64,000 nucleotides of DNA from positions 1 through 64,000 of the forward strand of contig CALRGJ010000004.1 in assembly GCA_943357285.1 (NCBI GenBank), given 5' to 3'. This DNA comes from Candidatus Peribacteria bacterium. Its GTDB lineage: Bacteria; Patescibacteriota; Gracilibacteria; UBA1369; LOWO2-01-FULL-3. Positions within the stretch are counted from its first letter, which is position 1, and the number at the start of each line of letters is the position of its first letter. Below are positions 39,583 through 48,442 of the stretch, in pieces. The translations under genes and the position numbers were made by a program. A model generated the notes under the pieces. The model saw only the letters and a list, made by a program, of their open reading frames with translations. It was not told the DNA's origin and did not search any database.

Positions 39583-41958
39583 ATGTTTCAGTCTTTAAGA
39601 GAAATTTCGTTATTAAATCGTTTCTTTAATATAAGGGGCAATGAGTGGTCGCGAGTAATTTTTGCTTTAGTTATTAAATTTCTTTATAGAACTTCATTTG
39701 TTGTCGGGTGGACTGTTTTGGTGGCGATGTTTGTTAGTAGATATGGAATTTTGGCTTTGCCTTATCTTTTTGTTATAAATGCTATTTTTTCAATTATTGG
39801 AAGTGTGGTTTATTCTCTTTGTTTTGAGAGAATATCAAGATTGACTGTAATGATTTCTACGATTGTCTTGTCGGGATTGTTTCTCTTTACGGCTGCTGTA
39901 ATTGTTAATACTCATCAGATTTTATTTTTTGCCTTATTGATTCTTTCTATCTCAATTTTATTGAATCAGTTGAGGATTATAATGATTGCTTATGTGGAGG
40001 AATTGTTTGATCCTCTCACTTCTGAGAGAACTTTCCCAGTTATAGAAGTTTCTGAAACTTTGGGTGGTATAGTTGCCGGTATAATGGTGACGTTTTTATC
40101 TAGTTATTTTTCTCTTTCTAGCTTTGTTTATCTAATGGTTAGCGTGTTATTGCTACTTATCCCGTTACTTTTATTCTTTGATTTTGAGGAGGAGAAAGTG
40201 GAGTTGGTTCGTAGTAAAAATTATGAAAAAGGTCCGGATGGAATATTTACTCAGTTGAAGCAGGCTTTTAGCGATAAGGCTCACGCCTCATTTGTTTATG
40301 GTTTGATTTTTATCGTTCTTTTTCAATGGATTATTTTTAACCTTATTGAATTTCAGTATACAAAAGTTGTTTATCAGAATGTTTCTAATGTGATTTTTGA
40401 GGCGGGCAGTGGATTTGAGCATGCATTTATTCACGATTTGGGTCTCTTATTTATTTTATTCAGTACTTCGGCATTGATTGTTGAAATACTATTGGGCAGT
40501 CGTCTAATAACTAGTTTAGGTGTTGTGGGGGCTATGTTGCTACATCCTATTGTTACTCTATTTAGCTTGATGGGTTTATTTTTAAGATTTGATTTTTTGA
40601 CTGCGGTTTTGGCAAAAAATAATTTTACTCTTACTTCTGTAATCCATACAAATACCTATCATATTTCTTACTATGCAGTTAAAGAGAGAGTTAGGGAGCA
40701 TTTGAGGGAATTTCTTGAGGGTGTTGTGAGACCTTTAGGTGCTTTGATTGGTACTCTTGCCGTAATTATTCTTGATAAAATTTTTGTAGGAAATCCTTTG
40801 AATTTGGCTTTGAATATTTCAATGGTGATTTGTACTTTAGTGTTTTTCTTTATCACTTATCGCCAACAGGCGAGATATACAAAAGTTGTTACAGAGGAGC
40901 TTCTCAATTCAAAAGAAAAGCATATTAGATTTAATGCTATTAATCTTTTGGCTCAAAGAGGTCATAAAATGGCTCTAGTCACTTTGCAGGAAATTTTGGC
41001 TAAAGCTGATGAACCTGATTCTGTTAAGGTAAAGATTCTAGCTGTTTTGTCTGAGTTGCAATCCTCTGAAGCTGTTTTGGATGTTGTTAAATGTTTGAAC
41101 TCTCAGAAAGCTGAAATACGTGAGGCTGCTCTCGATACTTTGATCTCATTTAAATTTTTGCATTCATATTCCAAGGAGTATTTGTTTGTAAAATATCAGT
41201 TGGTTGCTTCTCTAAAAGAACTTTATAAGGAAGAAAAAGATAAGGAAATTTTAGCTAAAATTATTTATTTAATGTCTCTTTTAAGCAATGTTTCTACAGT
41301 TGAATTTTTGTTTAAAGTTATTAATTCTAAAAATTCCGATCATAAATCCGATGCAATTTTTGCTTTAGGTAAATGTGATGATGAGAAAATTGCCAAAATT
41401 TTAGAGGAATATCTTTATTCTAAGAATCTTAGTTATCAGATCAATGCTGCTATGGCTCTGATTAATTTTAAAGGCTATAGGGATGAGGCTTTGCATGTAA
41501 TAAATTCTTTCATTTATTCTGAAAAGAAAGATAGGGTTCTCTTTGGTTTATTGGCTATTGGTGAACTTAACATGAGGAGTAAAAAGGCTGTTTGTCTGAA
41601 ATATCTTGATTCGGACGATGTTGACATGAAAATGTATAGCGCTATAGCTCTAGCTAAAATGGGTTTTTATCACTCTGTATCTTCAATATTAGATTTACTG
41701 TTTACTGGTGATGAATACCTGGTAAAAAAACTTAAAAGTTCAATTAAAAATGTTGACGTGCGAATTTATAAAAATATTGATAAGATTGTGAAGCATGTTG
41801 TTTCACAAAAAATTGAAGATTTGAAACTTAAAAATAATCATGTTGATCTTGAGTCTTTTTCCAATGAGTCATTGTCTCATTTAAAGAAATTGTATACTCT
41901 AATTGATGAATATGAAGAGATTGATACAATTAATTCTTTAATAAAAAATAACTTATAA
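39583..41958 (+). CDS. MFS/nucleotide-transporter-like membrane domain fused to HEAT repeats
   Basis: About 12 hydrophobic helices in aa ~20-430; HEAT-like repeats thereafter (HIRFNAINLLAQRGHKMALVTLQEIL..., EIREAALDTLISF..., DMKMYSAIALAKMGFYHSV). Confidence 0.8.
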   Translation: MFQSLREISLLNRFFNIRGNEWSRVIFALVIKFLYRTSFVVGWTVLVAMFVSRYGILALPYLFVINAIFSIIGSVVYSLCFERISRLTVMISTIVLSGLFLFTAAVIVNTHQILFFALLILSISILLNQLRIIMIAYVEELFDPLTSERTFPVIEVSETLGGIVAGIMVTFLSSYFSLSSFVYLMVSVLLLLIPLLLFFDFEEEKVELVRSKNYEKGPDGIFTQLKQAFSDKAHASFVYGLIFIVLFQWIIFNLIEFQYTKVVYQNVSNVIFEAGSGFEHAFIHDLGLLFILFSTSALIVEILLGSRLITSLGVVGAMLLHPIVTLFSLMGLFLRFDFLTAVLAKNNFTLTSVIHTNTYHISYYAVKERVREHLREFLEGVVRPLGALIGTLAVIILDKIFVGNPLNLALNISMVICTLVFFFITYRQQARYTKVVTEELLNSKEKHIRFNAINLLAQRGHKMALVTLQEILAKADEPDSVKVKILAVLSELQSSEAVLDVVKCLNSQKAEIREAALDTLISFKFLHSYSKEYLFVKYQLVASLKELYKEEKDKEILAKIIYLMSLLSNVSTVEFLFKVINSKNSDHKSDAIFALGKCDDEKIAKILEEYLYSKNLSYQINAAMALINFKGYRDEALHVINSFIYSEKKDRVLFGLLAIGELNMRSKKAVCLKYLDSDDVDMKMYSAIALAKMGFYHSVSSILDLLFTGDEYLVKKLKSSIKNVDVRIYKNIDKIVKHVVSQKIEDLKLKNNHVDLESFSNESLSHLKKLYTLIDEYEEIDTINSLIKNNL

Positions 41959-41961
41959 AAT

Positions 41962-42324
41962 ATGAATGTTAATTTAAAACTTAATTTTTTGGAGGCAGAT
42001 AAGGTAAACGGTGTTCAAGTCGTGGTTTTTGATGGTGAATTTGATAAGGCAGGATTTGCTGAAGTAAAGGATGAATTAACTAATTTTGTTAAAGCTTTTG
42101 ATTTGAAGTCTTTGGTTTTTGATTTTGGAAAACTTAAATATATTAACAGCGAGGGTATAGGCTTTTTGATGGAGGTTCATACTCACTTGATTCAACGTGA
42201 TAGAAAGTTGATTGTTGTGGCTTTGAATGCGAATGTTAAAGATATTTTTACTGCAATTGGGATTGCGGATATTGTTCCTATTTTCGATTCCTTAAATGAT
42301 TATTTAAAATCTGCAACTAAATGA
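41962..42324 (+). CDS. STAS-domain anti-sigma antagonist-like protein
   Basis: VFDGEFDKAGFAEVKDEL, LVFDFGKLKYINSEGIGFLMEVHTHL, IADIVPIFDSLNDYL. Confidence 0.9.
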   Translation: MNVNLKLNFLEADKVNGVQVVVFDGEFDKAGFAEVKDELTNFVKAFDLKSLVFDFGKLKYINSEGIGFLMEVHTHLIQRDRKLIVVALNANVKDIFTAIGIADIVPIFDSLNDYLKSATK

Positions 42325-43463
42325 AATTATTTAGAATCAGTTTAGTGAGAAAATTATTTGTGCTTTTACTCTTGATCTCAGGGGTTTCTGCCGCTGTTTT
42401 ATTTTACTATTCTGGGTCCAATCCTTTATTGGTTAGTACTGATTATTTTATTTATTTTGCCATTTTGATGTTGGTAGTTTTTACAGTTTTTTCTTACTTA
42501 ACATTTGTGAAACCTCTTGATGTAGTGCTAGAACAAATGGAGGCTTTGATTGCAGGAAAGCCATATAAAAAAATTTATACTAATAGGATTGATGAAATCG
42601 GGGTTTTGGCTCATTTTTTCAATCAAGTTACAAAAGGTTTTAGCGAGGTAAGCTCTGATATTAAAGATAGGCAAAGAATGATTGATGAATTAACTATTGC
42701 TGCCAGTTTGCAAAGAGATATTTTACCTTTGAGTTCACCTGTTATTTCCGGTCTTCAGGTAATTGCAAAAAATAAGCCTGCAACTGAAGTTGGTGGTGAT
42801 ATTTTTAATTTTATTACATCCAAAGATAAGACTTATATTTATATTGGTGATGTAACTGGTCATGGTGTTGCTGCGGCACTTATTATGACTATGGCTACCT
42901 CTTTGATTAGTGTTTTTGCTGATTCATGTAATTCAGCTTATGAGATTCTGGTTAGCGTTAATCGTTATATTAAGCGTCATGTGAAGCGTGCGATGTTTAT
43001 GACTCTTGTGATGCTTTCTTGGGATGCTAAAACTGAAAAACTTACTTATGTTGGTGCTGGTCATGAGCATATTTTGGTTTATCACGTGGACACAGGGGTA
43101 TGTGAATCTATTTTGTCTGGTGGTGTGGCTTTAGGTATGGTTCCTGATAATTCTAAATTAATTAAAGAGCAGGAAATAAATTGGAATGATGGAGATTTTG
43201 TTGTTGTATATAGTGATGGAATTACCGAATCGAGAAATGTCGCAGGAGAGTTATATGGTTTAGAAAGGTTGAAGAATGCTTTGATAGAATTTGCTCCTCA
43301 GTATTCCGCTGAAGGTGTAAATTATCACATCGCTCAGGATGTGTCCTCTTTTGCTAAAGGCCATATTCAAGATGATGATATGTCTTTGATTGTTATCAAG
43401 CGTGACAAGTCTTTAACGAAAGGAGCAGATGTAAGTAATCAATCTATTACTTGGTCTGCATGA
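42321..43463 (+). CDS. SpoIIE/RsbU-type PP2C phosphatase with TM helices and HAMP-like region
   Basis: PATEVGGDIFNFI, IYIGDVTGHGVAAALIMTM, GAGHEHILVY, FVVVYSDGITESRN, QDDDMSLIVIK. Confidence 0.94.
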   Translation: MKLFRISLVRKLFVLLLLISGVSAAVLFYYSGSNPLLVSTDYFIYFAILMLVVFTVFSYLTFVKPLDVVLEQMEALIAGKPYKKIYTNRIDEIGVLAHFFNQVTKGFSEVSSDIKDRQRMIDELTIAASLQRDILPLSSPVISGLQVIAKNKPATEVGGDIFNFITSKDKTYIYIGDVTGHGVAAALIMTMATSLISVFADSCNSAYEILVSVNRYIKRHVKRAMFMTLVMLSWDAKTEKLTYVGAGHEHILVYHVDTGVCESILSGGVALGMVPDNSKLIKEQEINWNDGDFVVVYSDGITESRNVAGELYGLERLKNALIEFAPQYSAEGVNYHIAQDVSSFAKGHIQDDDMSLIVIKRDKSLTKGADVSNQSITWSA

Positions 43464-44509
43464 AAACTTCTGATTTTGATTATTACTTGCCTGAGTCTTT
43501 AATTGCTCAGAATCCTGCATTTCCCAGGGATGCTTGTCGTCTTTTAGTTTATGATTCAAAAAATGATTCCGTGGAGCATTGTCATTTTTATGATTTGCCT
43601 AAATTTTTGAGTAAGAGTGATGTTTTAGTTTTAAATAAATCGAGGGTTGTACCTGCTAGAATTTTGTTTAGAGTAAATGGCTCTTTGAGAGAAATTTTTT
43701 TGTTAAAGCAGATTTCTCTTAATACTTATGAAGTTTTATTAAAGCCGGCTAGGAATTTTAAAGTGGGTGTTATCGTGAGGGTTTCTGAGGAATTGGAGTG
43801 TTCTGTTACTGAGGTTTTAGATGATGGTAGAAGAATTCTTTCTTTTAATTTGTTGAGCGGAGTGGATTTAAATTCTGTTCTATTTAAGCTTGGATCAATG
43901 CCTTTGCCTCCATATATTAAGCATTCTAAGGCTGTTTTTGAGGATTACCAGACGGTATTTGCTGAAAAGGACGGTAGTAAGGCTGCTCCCACAGCAGGTC
44001 TACATTTTACACGTGAATTGCTTTCTAATTTGAAAACTATGGGGGTTGATATAGAAGAGGTCGTTCTGCATATTGGTCTCGGTACTTTTGCTCCTGTTGT
44101 AGCGGAAAATTTGGGCGATCATAAAATGCATTTTGAGGAGTATGAAATGCCTTTGGATGTTGCTAGGAAATTAAATGAAGCAGTTATGAACAAAAAGAGA
44201 ATTGTGGCCGTAGGTACTACTTCTGTAAGGGTTTTGGAATCCTCTTTTGATCTAGAGAAGTCTTCTTTTGTATCCGGTACAGCTAACACTAATATTTTTA
44301 TTTATCCAGGGTCTTATGATTGGAAGGTGGTTGATTCATTGATTACTAATTTTCACTTACCAAAAAGTACTTTAATTATGTTGGTGTCTTCACTTCTTGA
44401 GTCTAAAGGTGTAAAAAATCCTGTAAAAAAAATATTGTCTCTCTATGAATTGGCTGTAAAAGAAAATTACAAGTTTTTTAGTTTTGGTGATGCAATGCTT
44501 ATAATTTAA
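43460..44509 (+). CDS. queA: tRNA preQ1(34) S-adenosylmethionine ribosyltransferase-isomerase
   Basis: FDYYLPESLIAQNP, NKSRVVPARI, KAAPTAGLHFT, TSVRVLES, LITNFHLPKSTLIMLVS; ATG overlaps the PP2C stop (ATGA). Confidence 0.96.
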   Translation: MKTSDFDYYLPESLIAQNPAFPRDACRLLVYDSKNDSVEHCHFYDLPKFLSKSDVLVLNKSRVVPARILFRVNGSLREIFLLKQISLNTYEVLLKPARNFKVGVIVRVSEELECSVTEVLDDGRRILSFNLLSGVDLNSVLFKLGSMPLPPYIKHSKAVFEDYQTVFAEKDGSKAAPTAGLHFTRELLSNLKTMGVDIEEVVLHIGLGTFAPVVAENLGDHKMHFEEYEMPLDVARKLNEAVMNKKRIVAVGTTSVRVLESSFDLEKSSFVSGTANTNIFIYPGSYDWKVVDSLITNFHLPKSTLIMLVSSLLESKGVKNPVKKILSLYELAVKENYKFFSFGDAMLII

Positions 44510-46898
44510 GCCATTGCGGTAAAAGTTTTGCCGGTCTTATTCCGTTAATTCTCTTTATTTTTTCTATGTCTGAAATATTGAATTTCCCGATGTAGAGATC
44601 TTCTATTTTCCCTCCATCTTCTATGAATTTTTTTATTTCAAAATATCCCTTGAAGTAAAGATAGTCTTTTGTGAATGCTCCTGATTTTCCAGTGTCATTG
44701 AATCCCCTTTTTGCTTTTACTGTAGATCTAAATGCTTGTTCTTTCGTGAATCCATAGCTTACTAATTTAGAGTAAACTTTGCTAAAACTATTGTGCATTG
44801 CTTCATATATTGCTACTACGTGTCCAAGTGCTTTGGAGTTTTCTGTAAATTTTTTATTGCGTTGTTTCTCTACGTTATACATTGCAAGTCCTTCTTGTGT
44901 TGTTAGATAGTTTGCTGATCCTCTATTGAGAATTTCGTATGGCTGGAGCTTTCCGTTTTCTGCAGTAAGTATGTGAGTTTCTATTTCGTGGATAATTAAT
45001 TCTTCGATTCTGTCTTCACAGAATGTCGCATTTTTTTTGATAAATAAGCTGTTGTTTTTGCCGGCTACGCAATTTGAAACTAAATCTTCCTTTATTTTTA
45101 CGGCCCACTTGTTTAATCCATATTTCTTAAAGGATTCTTCAAATCTATTTTTTGCTTCATTTGAGTCTATGGTGCATTTTTCCTCTATTTGCTCAGGTGC
45201 ATCACTTATGTATTTTTTGCATTCTTCGTACTCTTCTTGGCTTGGTTGTCCATATAATTCTATGGAATATTTTGTGAAATTTTCTTCATCTATCGATTCA
45301 AGAAGATTGATTTTTTTTATGATTTCTTGTTTCTTTTCCTCGTATATTTTCCCCAAGGTTGAGGAATCGGTTTCTATTTTTCCGAGTTCATCCAAAAGGT
45401 CTATTGCGTTGAATTTCATTGAGGGATATTCAAATTCCGGATTGTAGTTAGTATTTTTGAAAAACTTTTTTTTCTCTTCTTCCAGATTTATAGGTCTGAG
45501 ATGATATAAAAGTTTAATTTTATTATCTAAATTTATTATTTTCTGGTCTGTTTCGTAGAAATTTATTTTTTTAAAAGTTTCTTCTTTTGGTGTGGCCGGA
45601 GTTTCAGATTTTGTGTTTTTTTGTTCTTTCTTTTCTTGATTTAAATTTGTGTCTATTAAAAATTCCTGTAAATCTCTGGTGCCAAGAATTATCTTGTATT
45701 CTTTGTTTGGTATTTTTTCTATCTCAACAATTGTATGAATTCTTTTTCCTTTGAGTGTGAATTTCAATTTAAGGGTCGATTTTTCATCGTCGTAGTCGTT
45801 TTCATTATCTAAAAGCCCGCATTTTAGAGCTGTTTCTTCATCCAAGATGCTTATTTTTCTACTTGTATCTACTTTTGCCGCTATTTGAATTGTGCTCTGT
45901 TTTTGTATTATTTCTACTTTTTCGTTTGTGCTGATGACTTGTTTACCGGAGATTTGAGCAATTCCCTTTTCTACTATGTTTCCAAACATATCTTTGGCAA
46001 TTCTTACGCCTTTTGCCGGAGTTGTTACTTTTACTCCTTCAATTCTTTCCAGGCGTTTTCTGAGTGGTGCAAGATTGGCTATTTGAACTCCGAGTCCGGC
46101 TCTGGCGTTGATTTCCAAGAGAACGGGTCCGGTGTTTTTATCTATACAGATGTCGACCGCCATGTAACCCAAGTTTGTTACTAACTGTACCGTTGAAGCA
46201 ATAGTTAAAATTTGATCCCAATATGGAATACTGAGTCCTTTAATGCTACCCATTCCATCAGGAAGTTCTTCTATTATTCTATTCTTGTATGAGATATGGG
46301 TTGTTTGACCTTTTGCTATGTCTATTCCTATTCCCACTGCACCCATGTGTAAATTGGCTTTACCTTTAGATTCCTTTGTAGGAAGTCTAAGCATGGCCAT
46401 TACAGGAATAAGATTATGCACGATGACTCTAATGTCAGGAAGTCCTTCGTATGAGTATTTTCCTATTTTTTCATCGGCAACAATATATTGTTCAAAAAAG
46501 GCAAAATCGCTCACGTTTGATATGGAAAATCTACCATCCAAAATATCTCTTATATGATCCTTTAGTTCTTCTTTGTTTAATTTTGTTCCTCCGGCCGTGT
46601 AGTAATTGTTATCTTTTACTTCTGTAACAGGAATAATTCCTTCACCACCGTATCCGGTGTTTGGCTTGAGAGCAAAAGAATCTGGAAGTGAGTTGAAGTC
46701 GAATTTTTCGAGCTCCGCTGTATCACGGATAACTCCATAAAGTTTTGGGACCGGAATATCACGTGCAGAAAGAAACTGTTTTGTTTTAATTTTATCGTCG
46801 GCTAATTTAACAGCTTTTTTAGGGTTGTATGGCCTCATATAGAGGAGATTTCTAGCGTTGATGCCAAGAATTCCTTTATTCGAAAAAAATGAAAACAT
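44499..46898 (-). CDS. fusion: RimK-related ATP-grasp ligase + retropepsin-like protease domain + DUF1704/MATCAP-like metallopeptidase
   Basis: ATP-grasp aa ~1-315 (FALKPNTGYGGEGI, PVLLEINARAGLGVQIAN); aa ~325-418 AAKVDTSRK...KIILGTRDLQEFLID; aa ~446-799 with HEIETH (44973-44990) and TTQEGLAMY. Confidence 0.87.
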   Translation of the reverse strand: MFSFFSNKGILGINARNLLYMRPYNPKKAVKLADDKIKTKQFLSARDIPVPKLYGVIRDTAELEKFDFNSLPDSFALKPNTGYGGEGIIPVTEVKDNNYYTAGGTKLNKEELKDHIRDILDGRFSISNVSDFAFFEQYIVADEKIGKYSYEGLPDIRVIVHNLIPVMAMLRLPTKESKGKANLHMGAVGIGIDIAKGQTTHISYKNRIIEELPDGMGSIKGLSIPYWDQILTIASTVQLVTNLGYMAVDICIDKNTGPVLLEINARAGLGVQIANLAPLRKRLERIEGVKVTTPAKGVRIAKDMFGNIVEKGIAQISGKQVISTNEKVEIIQKQSTIQIAAKVDTSRKISILDEETALKCGLLDNENDYDDEKSTLKLKFTLKGKRIHTIVEIEKIPNKEYKIILGTRDLQEFLIDTNLNQEKKEQKNTKSETPATPKEETFKKINFYETDQKIINLDNKIKLLYHLRPINLEEEKKKFFKNTNYNPEFEYPSMKFNAIDLLDELGKIETDSSTLGKIYEEKKQEIIKKINLLESIDEENFTKYSIELYGQPSQEEYEECKKYISDAPEQIEEKCTIDSNEAKNRFEESFKKYGLNKWAVKIKEDLVSNCVAGKNNSLFIKKNATFCEDRIEELIIHEIETHILTAENGKLQPYEILNRGSANYLTTQEGLAMYNVEKQRNKKFTENSKALGHVVAIYEAMHNSFSKVYSKLVSYGFTKEQAFRSTVKAKRGFNDTGKSGAFTKDYLYFKGYFEIKKFIEDGGKIEDLYIGKFNISDIEKIKRINGIRPAKLLPQWLKL

Positions 46899-46900
46899 AT

Positions 46901-48442
46901 TTATTCTTCAATATGACGTAATATTTCTCTGAAGCGAATGCGTTCTAAAACCCTTAATCCCGTCCATTTTCCAAGACCTATATCTGCTATGATTAATAGG
47001 AATACTAATTCAGGATATGTTAGCATCATACGTTTTACGAATTCTAATTTTACAACCGTAAATCCTAGGTCTATTTCTCCTCCGGCAATGAAGTAAGCGA
47101 CGATTGCTACTATCAGAGTTTCAAACATTAATACTGCAGCTGAGGAAAGTCCGTTCTCTGTTCTTGCTGTCACAAATTTCTCAACTAAAGTGCTTAATAT
47201 AAGCATTGGGAAAATAGCGATTGAGAGAAATTGAGCATTGAAAAATCCAAAATAATTGGCAGAAATTAAAATTAAAAATAGGGCTAGAGTTACTAGCGTG
47301 AGAACTATAGCCATCTTTGGTATAAAAAGCATTCTAGCGCGCTTTAGTAGTGGTTTGGCGGCTATCCCTACGGCGATAGCTACTAAAAGAGTTAGTAACC
47401 CTGCTTGTATACCTATGATCAAGAAAGAGAGAGTCATTATGGTAGGAGTGTAGATGCCGAAAGTAGTGATTCCAACGACTTGTCTCATTACTGCAACAAC
47501 GGTAGCGATCACTGGTAATAGGAGAAGGAGGGCTATGGTGTTATCCGGAATACCATTGTTTACGAGAGCATTTACAAAGTAGCTCATAAAATTCCAAGGT
47601 AGGAGTTTGCCACTTTTAGAATCTACTATCTGGTATACGTTTCCTCTTTCTTTGAGGTTATTAACGAATTCTTCTTCGGATACGCTTTCAATCAGAGCAT
47701 CAATTGCTCCTTCCTTTGCAACTATTATTGATTTTGGCTTTATGAGATTGAATTGGCGTTGTGTTCGCTCAATTTTGCTATCAACTGAATTGTCGAGAAC
47801 TATTAAAGTCTTCTGGCTGAAGTCACTGGCTATTTTTCCGCTATTATTTTGAATAAAACGTGAAATAGAATTGAGTCCTGAATTTTCTTTGCTCCAGATT
47901 GCGATTTGTTTCGCTTTTTGGAGGTCATCCATTGCTTCTGTTAGTTTTTTTGTGAGAATTTCTTCTGAAATAAATTCTGTGCTGCTGCCGTAGCTATCAA
48001 TTGTTTTGAGATACACACCTTTTTTCTCAGCGTAATTTTGAATTATTTGAATTCGGTCTTTGTTTTCTGTTTGATCTGTAATTAAAACTATAAGCTTTCT
48101 GTATCCGAATACTTTTGTGGTGGAGTTTGATTTATTTTTGCCATCATTTAAAGTAAGTTTTACGTCGTAGTACCCAGGTTCTTTAAAAGAATGTAATACT
48201 TCTATTCCTTCGTTACGGTTTCCATCTCCAAAGTCCCATTCATATTTAACATTTTTAATTCCTTCCGGAATATATGATTGAGATGCATCAAAAATTGTGC
48301 TTTTTTTAATTTCGACGGCATTTGGAATATTTATTACTGCTCTTAGATAATTGGAGTCTTGTGGAGTTTCAGCGTAAGTAATTTGTGCACCTACGGTAAA
48401 ACAAAAAAACAAGGCTACGACGCTATTTAATATTTTTTTCAT
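46901..48442 (-). CDS. PKD-domain protein with C-terminal 7TM (transglutaminase-associated type)
   Basis: Signal peptide; YEWDFGDGNRNEGIEVLHSFKEPGYYDVKLTL (PKD); GIPDNTIALLLLLPVIATVVAVMRQVVGITTFGIYTPTIMTLSF and further TM helices. Confidence 0.83.
   Translation of the reverse strand: MKKILNSVVALFFCFTVGAQITYAETPQDSNYLRAVINIPNAVEIKKSTIFDASQSYIPEGIKNVKYEWDFGDGNRNEGIEVLHSFKEPGYYDVKLTLNDGKNKSNSTTKVFGYRKLIVLITDQTENKDRIQIIQNYAEKKGVYLKTIDSYGSSTEFISEEILTKKLTEAMDDLQKAKQIAIWSKENSGLNSISRFIQNNSGKIASDFSQKTLIVLDNSVDSKIERTQRQFNLIKPKSIIVAKEGAIDALIESVSEEEFVNNLKERGNVYQIVDSKSGKLLPWNFMSYFVNALVNNGIPDNTIALLLLLPVIATVVAVMRQVVGITTFGIYTPTIMTLSFLIIGIQAGLLTLLVAIAVGIAAKPLLKRARMLFIPKMAIVLTLVTLALFLILISANYFGFFNAQFLSIAIFPMLILSTLVEKFVTARTENGLSSAAVLMFETLIVAIVAYFIAGGEIDLGFTVVKLEFVKRMMLTYPELVFLLIIADIGLGKWTGLRVLERIRFREILRHIEE

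Follow-up and report, generated by a model that had tools for sequence, protein, structure and literature searches.

An ATP-grasp, retropepsin-like and MATCAP fusion of Peribacteria as a candidate writer-eraser of the -Glu-Glu tail of a membrane partner

The window analyzed here, a 64,000-nucleotide (nt) stretch of contig CALRGJ010000004.1 (assembly GCA_943357285.1) from a Candidatus Peribacteria bacterium, carries on its minus strand, like the parts of this gene and its partner located below, a gene (44499..46898) that joins an ATP-grasp ligase, a retropepsin-like domain and a MATCAP metallopeptidase in one protein of 799 residues (aa). The reading that we favor, and regard as reasonably probable, is that this protein is a cytoplasmic writer-eraser that acts on the C-terminal -Glu-Glu (-EE) tail of a membrane protein with seven transmembrane helices (7TM) encoded directly upstream. 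Behind it stand the domains and folds computed here, the invariance of the ATP-grasp and MATCAP sites, the decay of the retropepsin with MATCAP coupling, the conservation of the partner, and a partner tail in -EE that tracks this coupling. More tentatively, a single polypeptide might reversibly lengthen and shorten the Glu tail of a 7TM sensor, as a bacterial counterpart of the tubulin code, with MATCAP having replaced the retropepsin and the tail having evolved to -Glu-Glu to suit.

The fused protein and its two conserved enzymes

A first-pass annotation of this DNA had recognized three modules in one uninterrupted frame, naming no strand, and had raised both the chance of an assembly artefact and that of finding other triple fusions. 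The frame is confirmed by the list of open reading frames and the translation as 799 uninterrupted codons on the minus strand, and the architecture by Pfam, Foldseek and full-length homologues. The host belongs to the Patescibacteria (Peregrinibacteria type; genome of 1.2 Mb, 99% complete). Among 60 related genomes (same genus, family and order), 49 gave some match and 40 encoded the complete fusion; since it is conserved in full length in so many genomes, the fusion is no assembly artefact. In these genomes the gene usually lies 0-20 nt downstream of an RloB-related 7TM gene. The relatives named among the matches listed are Candidatus Peregrinibacteria, Peribacteria and Gracilibacteria, the scan having been tuned to this clade. 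In a phylum-wide sample MATCAP was found in 86 of 380 genomes and the ATP-grasp model in 139 of 381, some of these matches being weak, and within the class MATCAP was found in 203 of 288 genomes. PADLOC gave no match for the fusion as a defence system, and a defence role was rejected.

The N-terminal part, aa ~5-300 (45999..46886), is a RimK-like ATP-grasp ligase domain that matched ATPgrasp_ST of Pfam (PF14397) at aa 16-287 (E 3e-71; 240 bits, cut-off 31.4) and TIGR02291 of NCBIfam at aa 5-289 (E 6e-87; 291.6 bits, below the NCBI cut-off of 314.2). With the AlphaFold2 model, the top ATP-grasp match in Foldseek was RimK (5zct, E 6.5e-9). Active-site conservation was read from 100 aligned fusions, 75 of them distinct, and K78, R157, D249 and the ExNAR block (E262, N264 and R266) were invariant in all 100. 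The fold is thus of RimK type with conserved ATP- and Mg-binding residues and, by analogy, the domain would ligate amino acids, most likely L-glutamate, onto a C-terminus.

The C-terminal part, aa ~451-798 (44505..45548), matched MATCAP (PF08014, formerly DUF1704) at aa 478-796 (E 2e-57; 195 bits, cut-off 27; profile positions 2-346 of 365) and QEGLA (TIGR02421) at aa 451-798 (E 1e-59; 202.5 bits, below the NCBI cut-off of 338.65). A phmmer comparison with the solved structure 7z5g gave E 3e-14 and Foldseek placed human MATCAP at E 1.9e-11; when the whole-protein AlphaFold2 model was searched, the best solved matches were human MATCAP and then RimK. The metal-binding and catalytic motif HEIETH (aa 637-642, 44973..44990) aligns with HEIGTH of human MATCAP and fits HExExH in 100 of 100 sequences, and QEG (aa 668-670, 44889..44897), which provides the third metal ligand, E669, and opens the QEGLA motif (aa 668-672), aligns with the human EEG; this triplet is QEG in 96 and EEG in 4 of the 100 relatives, EG being present in all. 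From these motifs the domain is predicted to be, and probably is, a metallocarboxypeptidase. The annotation had placed a RimK-related ligase at aa ~1-315 and a MATCAP/DUF1704 domain with HEIETH and QEGLA at aa ~446-799, and both assignments are borne out.

For bacterial MATCAP/QEGLA proteins, the existing name refers to nothing more than an old effect on flavohemoglobin. Patescibacteria were also seen to have a second and divergent family of MATCAP-like proteins, 430-490 aa long (L154:5768-7195, genome G008; L147:5925-7349; L151; L152), often with HEIGTH and away from the ATP-grasp operon.

The retropepsin-like domain

The middle part of the protein, aa 316-422 (45633..45953), gave no Pfam match up to E 0.1, PF05618 included. 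Modelled alone with AlphaFold2 (pLDDT 91.8, pTM 0.83), it found as best solved matches in Foldseek the retropepsins RloA2 (9g59), RloA (9g58) and Ddi1 (E 3.5e-5), and its profile aligned with that of intact relatives in hhalign at 99.8% (E 3e-28); these relatives match PF05618, and their profile also finds the solved structures of RloA. The earlier assignment of a retropepsin-like ATP-dependent zinc protease to aa ~325-418 therefore stands as to the fold, as does the replacement of KVDTG by KVDTS that it reported: DTS (aa 344-346, 45861..45869) occupies the position of the catalytic Asp, where intact relatives have DTG. A working protease is another matter, given that the flap segment is missing. 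Foldseek did not return unrelated folds, which the annotation had considered, for either this part (retropepsins) or the C-terminal one (human MATCAP).

We compared the window with another 79 stretches of Patescibacteria DNA, mostly the surroundings of ATP-grasp genes. The majority encode an ATP-grasp-retropepsin protein and lack MATCAP in the vicinity; in others MATCAP is a separate, adjacent gene, and others again have the fusion. D[TS]G was intact in 62 of 62 cases without an operonic or fused MATCAP, in 3 of 9 with MATCAP adjacent and in 11 of 79 fused proteins. The longer D[TS]GA was kept in 47 of 49 without MATCAP nearby versus 0 of 79 fused, and the flap Arg in 96% versus 4%. Eighteen additional fused proteins, ten of them translated with TGA as Gly, all lacked D[TS]G. 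Thus, judging from sequence, almost every fused protein carries a retropepsin whose catalytic site has decayed, which leaves each chain one probable eraser and not two; the idea of two working proteases per chain was rejected for most members, in which DTG and flap are lost. In the window protein Asp344 is kept (as DTS), and we call the domain a probable pseudo-protease because of its lost flap and the family trend. Loss of catalytic residues in homologues, which had been named as a possible objection, concerns this site and not the invariant ATP-grasp and MATCAP ones.

It appears that MATCAP replaced the retropepsin as eraser. Loci L142, L143 and L153, with an intact retropepsin next to a separate MATCAP gene, look like intermediates. 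ATP-grasp-retropepsin fusions without MATCAP are common across Patescibacteria. ATP-grasp-retropepsin proteins of 854-921 aa were also seen (L147:7408-10173 and L164:3218-5782), and that of L147 has, by eye, an apparent second ATP-grasp-like region downstream of the retropepsin.

The membrane partner and its C-terminal tail

Directly upstream, at a gap of 2 nt, lies the partner gene (46901..48442), whose product of 513 aa has a signal peptide-like N-terminus, a PKD domain (aa 37-111, 48110..48334; PF18911, E 8e-15) and an RloB-like 7TM_transglut domain (aa 301-507, 46922..47542; PF14402, E 3e-26). Seven predicted helices correspond to the latter, the match to the RloB model being below its cut-off; no transglutaminase match was obtained with Pfam up to E 0.1, a PKD domain being present instead. 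Signal peptide and seven helices together give the topology, and the C-terminal tail should therefore be cytoplasmic and the PKD domain presumably outside the membrane. The pairing of partner and fusion is kept in almost every related locus where the sequence extends far enough to show it. The annotation had suggested a self-contained cycle of adding and removing a tag; its pairing of ligase and MATCAP agrees with the invariance of both sites, while the conserved 7TM RloB-like partner speaks against self-containment.

The partner ends in RFREILRHIEE, the codons of the final -Glu-Glu being at 46904..46909. An -EE tail was found in 69 of 73 fused genomes (72 of the 73 ending in Glu), in 6 of 9 operonic ones with MATCAP adjacent, these six being the very ones whose retropepsin is dead, and in 1 of 58 other genomes (Fisher 4e-30 for EE versus MATCAP, in a test that ignores shared ancestry). 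Counted from the C-terminus, entropy was 0.12 bits at -1, 0.43 at -2 and 2.6 at -3, and the Glu tail ranged from E to EEEE among partners. On these grounds we infer that the -EE C-terminus of the partner is the best substrate candidate. RpsF, the substrate of RimK, is an unlikely one, as the RpsF of the relatives whose genes were read ends in -DPDITL or similar, with no C-terminal Glu, in which respect the system differs from RimABK.

Since in many cases no more than 20 nt separate the partner gene from the start of the following one, we tested whether the tail could be an artefact of the ribosome-binding site. EE was present in 12 of 14 partners with gaps of at least 60 nt to the next gene, and in 13 of 14 genomes in which the partner gene is unlinked, a prediction fixed beforehand (the fourteenth ends in -DDEEV). 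Loci without MATCAP have equally tight gaps and showed EE in 1 of 30, other genes in the same loci end in EE in 2%, tight gap or not, and the commonest codon pair for the tail is GAA-GAA. A Shine-Dalgarno origin of the EE codons was rejected on the strength of these controls.

Some partners deserve separate mention. Those of L031, L055 and G553 (L266) have rare -LEEVY or -DDEEV ends, with one or two residues after two Glu, that resemble the -EEY of tubulin, and the L031 partner has Cys residues just upstream of its C-terminal end. Genome L160, with an intact retropepsin and an uncoupled MATCAP, has an RloB that ends in a long acidic run, SEEEEEEEREEE; no other genome without a coupled MATCAP had an EE tail. 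In the TGA-recoding Gracilibacteria L248-L257, a conserved protein of ~300 aa with 4-5 transmembrane segments and a basic end (RRYLKK type) is encoded upstream of the fused gene, the RloB-like gene being elsewhere in the genome.

Proposed mechanism and alternatives

We propose that the ATP-grasp domain would add amino acids, most likely L-glutamate, to the C-terminus of the 7TM partner by RimK-type chemistry, that the encoded -Glu-Glu tail would be exposed to it in the cytoplasm, and that the MATCAP domain would trim the same tail as a metallocarboxypeptidase. The decayed retropepsin may have been retained as a fold, perhaps docking or stimulating the ligase as RimB does for RimK, and in relatives without a coupled MATCAP the intact retropepsin would be the presumed eraser. 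The state of the tail might set signalling by the partner; the analogy here is with RloABC and its part in osmotic and envelope stress.

Several observations weigh against this proposal. Loci L142, L143 and L153 have MATCAP adjacent and an intact DTG with no EE, so MATCAP adjacency alone does not bring the tail, and the partners of L031 (-LEEVY) and G553 (-DDEEV) end otherwise. Loss of retropepsin activity would have to extend to the eleven fused proteins that keep D[TS]G and to the window protein, which keeps D344. The Pseudomonas aeruginosa system is laid out differently, because its RloA is secreted. Combinations of MATCAP, dead retropepsin and E/EE tail come from about three lineages, and concordant independent pairs number one to four, depending on pairing and trait, with opposing ones almost absent; being so few, they cannot reach 0.05 and no significance was obtained. 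Finally, the -EE tail could be a docking signal.

According to this last alternative, which we consider unlikely, the tail would serve as an invariable anchor, bound by a basic site in either the ligase or the MATCAP domain, that recruits the enzyme to the membrane and keeps it there; the molecule modified would be something different, for instance free poly-glutamate, an envelope precursor or some other protein. A short and constant tail would suit it, as would the Pfam label of PF14397 ('sugar-transfer associated') and the ability of RimK to make also free poly-alpha-glutamate under regulation by RimB (PMC11957791). However, constraint falls on the last two residues, the site of action of a carboxypeptidase or a C-terminal ligase, residues vary freely from -3 on, and a tail of variable length is unlike a rigid motif.

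It is also conceivable, though less likely still, that MATCAP does no more than mature the partner, cutting off encoded C-terminal Glu in a one-way process, the ATP-grasp chemistry being separate and there being no cycle. A genetically encoded tail needs no ligase to become a MATCAP substrate, and operonic, unfused MATCAP genes exist (L142, L148); yet the repeated coupling of MATCAP to the ATP-grasp gene by fusion or operon suggests coupled reactions, the ligase active site is invariant, and a RimK product is known to be erased by retropepsins that occupy this position (PMC11957791).

Shared ancestry offers another explanation for the covariation. In the enlarged ATP-grasp tree, nearly all fusions fell in one clade (support 94), and the two further lineages were the fused L157/158 and the operonic L148-150, L216 and L217; the four independent fusions of a first tree were lowered to about three captures once the tree included a further 18 proteins. 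The -EE tail, the decay of the retropepsin and the fusion of MATCAP might then have nothing to do with one another and have been passed on jointly within a single large clade, as this clade and the scarcity of independent pairs would allow. We think this quite improbable, since the same trio recurs in the L157/158 pair and in the operonic clade with almost no opposing pairs, EE persists at a protein divergence of about 40-60% and in those Gracilibacteria with a changed code whose partner gene is unlinked, and loci with adjacent MATCAP divide by retropepsin state exactly as predicted.

Relation to known systems

Iyer et al. (2009) are said to have predicted ATP-grasp systems of this kind. The writer-eraser that we propose resembles several known systems in part. 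In P. aeruginosa, rloABC encodes a secreted retropepsin (RloA), an inactive transglutaminase with 7TM (RloB) and an ATP-grasp protein (RloC), and deletion of rloB or rloC rescues the loss of RloA proteases (PMC12239564). Both systems unite the same three modules (ATP-grasp, retropepsin fold and 7TM partner) within an operon, the best Foldseek matches of our retropepsin are RloA2 and RloA, and the PF14402 partner adjoins the TIGR02291-like ATP-grasp in a conserved arrangement, here with a 2-nt gap. Unlike RloABC, ATP-grasp, retropepsin and MATCAP are here one cytoplasmic polypeptide; the retropepsin is probably dead, lies inside the fusion and has no signal-like N-terminus by eye, whereas RloA is secreted, active and encoded by its own gene; and the partner has PKD where proteobacterial RloB has the inactive transglutaminase, and ends in EE, while the two proteobacterial RloB inspected (Legionella and Aeromonas) have no Glu at the C-terminus.

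RimK adds Glu to the C-terminus of RpsF, RimB removes Glu and stimulates RimK, and a RimB-RimK hybrid, RimBK, has been published (PMC11957791). The likeness lies in an ATP-grasp Glu ligase with a retropepsin that removes poly-Glu, and in the existence of a one-polypeptide hybrid; in RimBK, however, an active RimB domain precedes the ligase, whereas in our protein the ligase comes first, then a probably inactive retropepsin and then MATCAP. Pairing or fusion of an ATP-grasp with a retropepsin is thus already known or expected and, as such fusions are common in Patescibacteria, what is distinctive is the capture of MATCAP together with the loss of the retropepsin.

The human MATCAP family members TMCP1 and TMCP2 cleave C-terminal Glu and shorten tubulin polyglutamate (PMC10499314). 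They (PDB 7z5g) share family and active-site motifs with our domain and act on acidic C-terminal tails, but the latter is bacterial and ligase-fused, with no tubulin substrate and a proposed tail on a 7TM membrane protein. The tubulin tyrosination and polyglutamylation cycle (TTL/TTLL versus MATCAP, VASH and CCP) likewise opposes an ATP-grasp-type ligase to a carboxypeptidase on a -Glu-Glu tail, with the difference that the eukaryotic enzymes are separate and here both are in one chain. Bacterial QEGLA proteins (TIGR02421) have the same fold and motif, although the fused protein scores below their cut-off. On Aminobacter plasmid pAA02 (L223, 2199-5943), a QEGLA/MATCAP gene lies between genes for an N-formylglutamate amidohydrolase and a glutathione-synthetase-like ATP-grasp, a second and unrelated MATCAP-ATP-grasp pairing, in which the ATP-grasp belongs to another family and an RloB partner is absent.

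A search of the open literature, with partial coverage, found no paper on the MATCAP fusion, the retropepsin decay or RloB tail modification. The proposal gives a concrete and testable substrate and chemistry to two long-uncharacterized families, the RloB/RloC 7TM-ATP-grasp pair, which is tied to Pseudomonas envelope stress, and bacterial MATCAP/QEGLA. It suggests that bacterial relatives of the eukaryotic tubulin-tail trimmer are already partnered with ligases that act on tails, and describes an apparent eraser swap, in which a peptidase of one class has decayed where a peptidase of an unrelated class is coupled to the same ligase.

Neighboring genes

On the other side of the fused gene, positions 39583-43463 of the window hold an operon-like series of a 791-aa fusion of MFS transporter and HEAT repeats, followed by a STAS protein and an SpoIIE phosphatase, a possible partner-switch signalling cassette.

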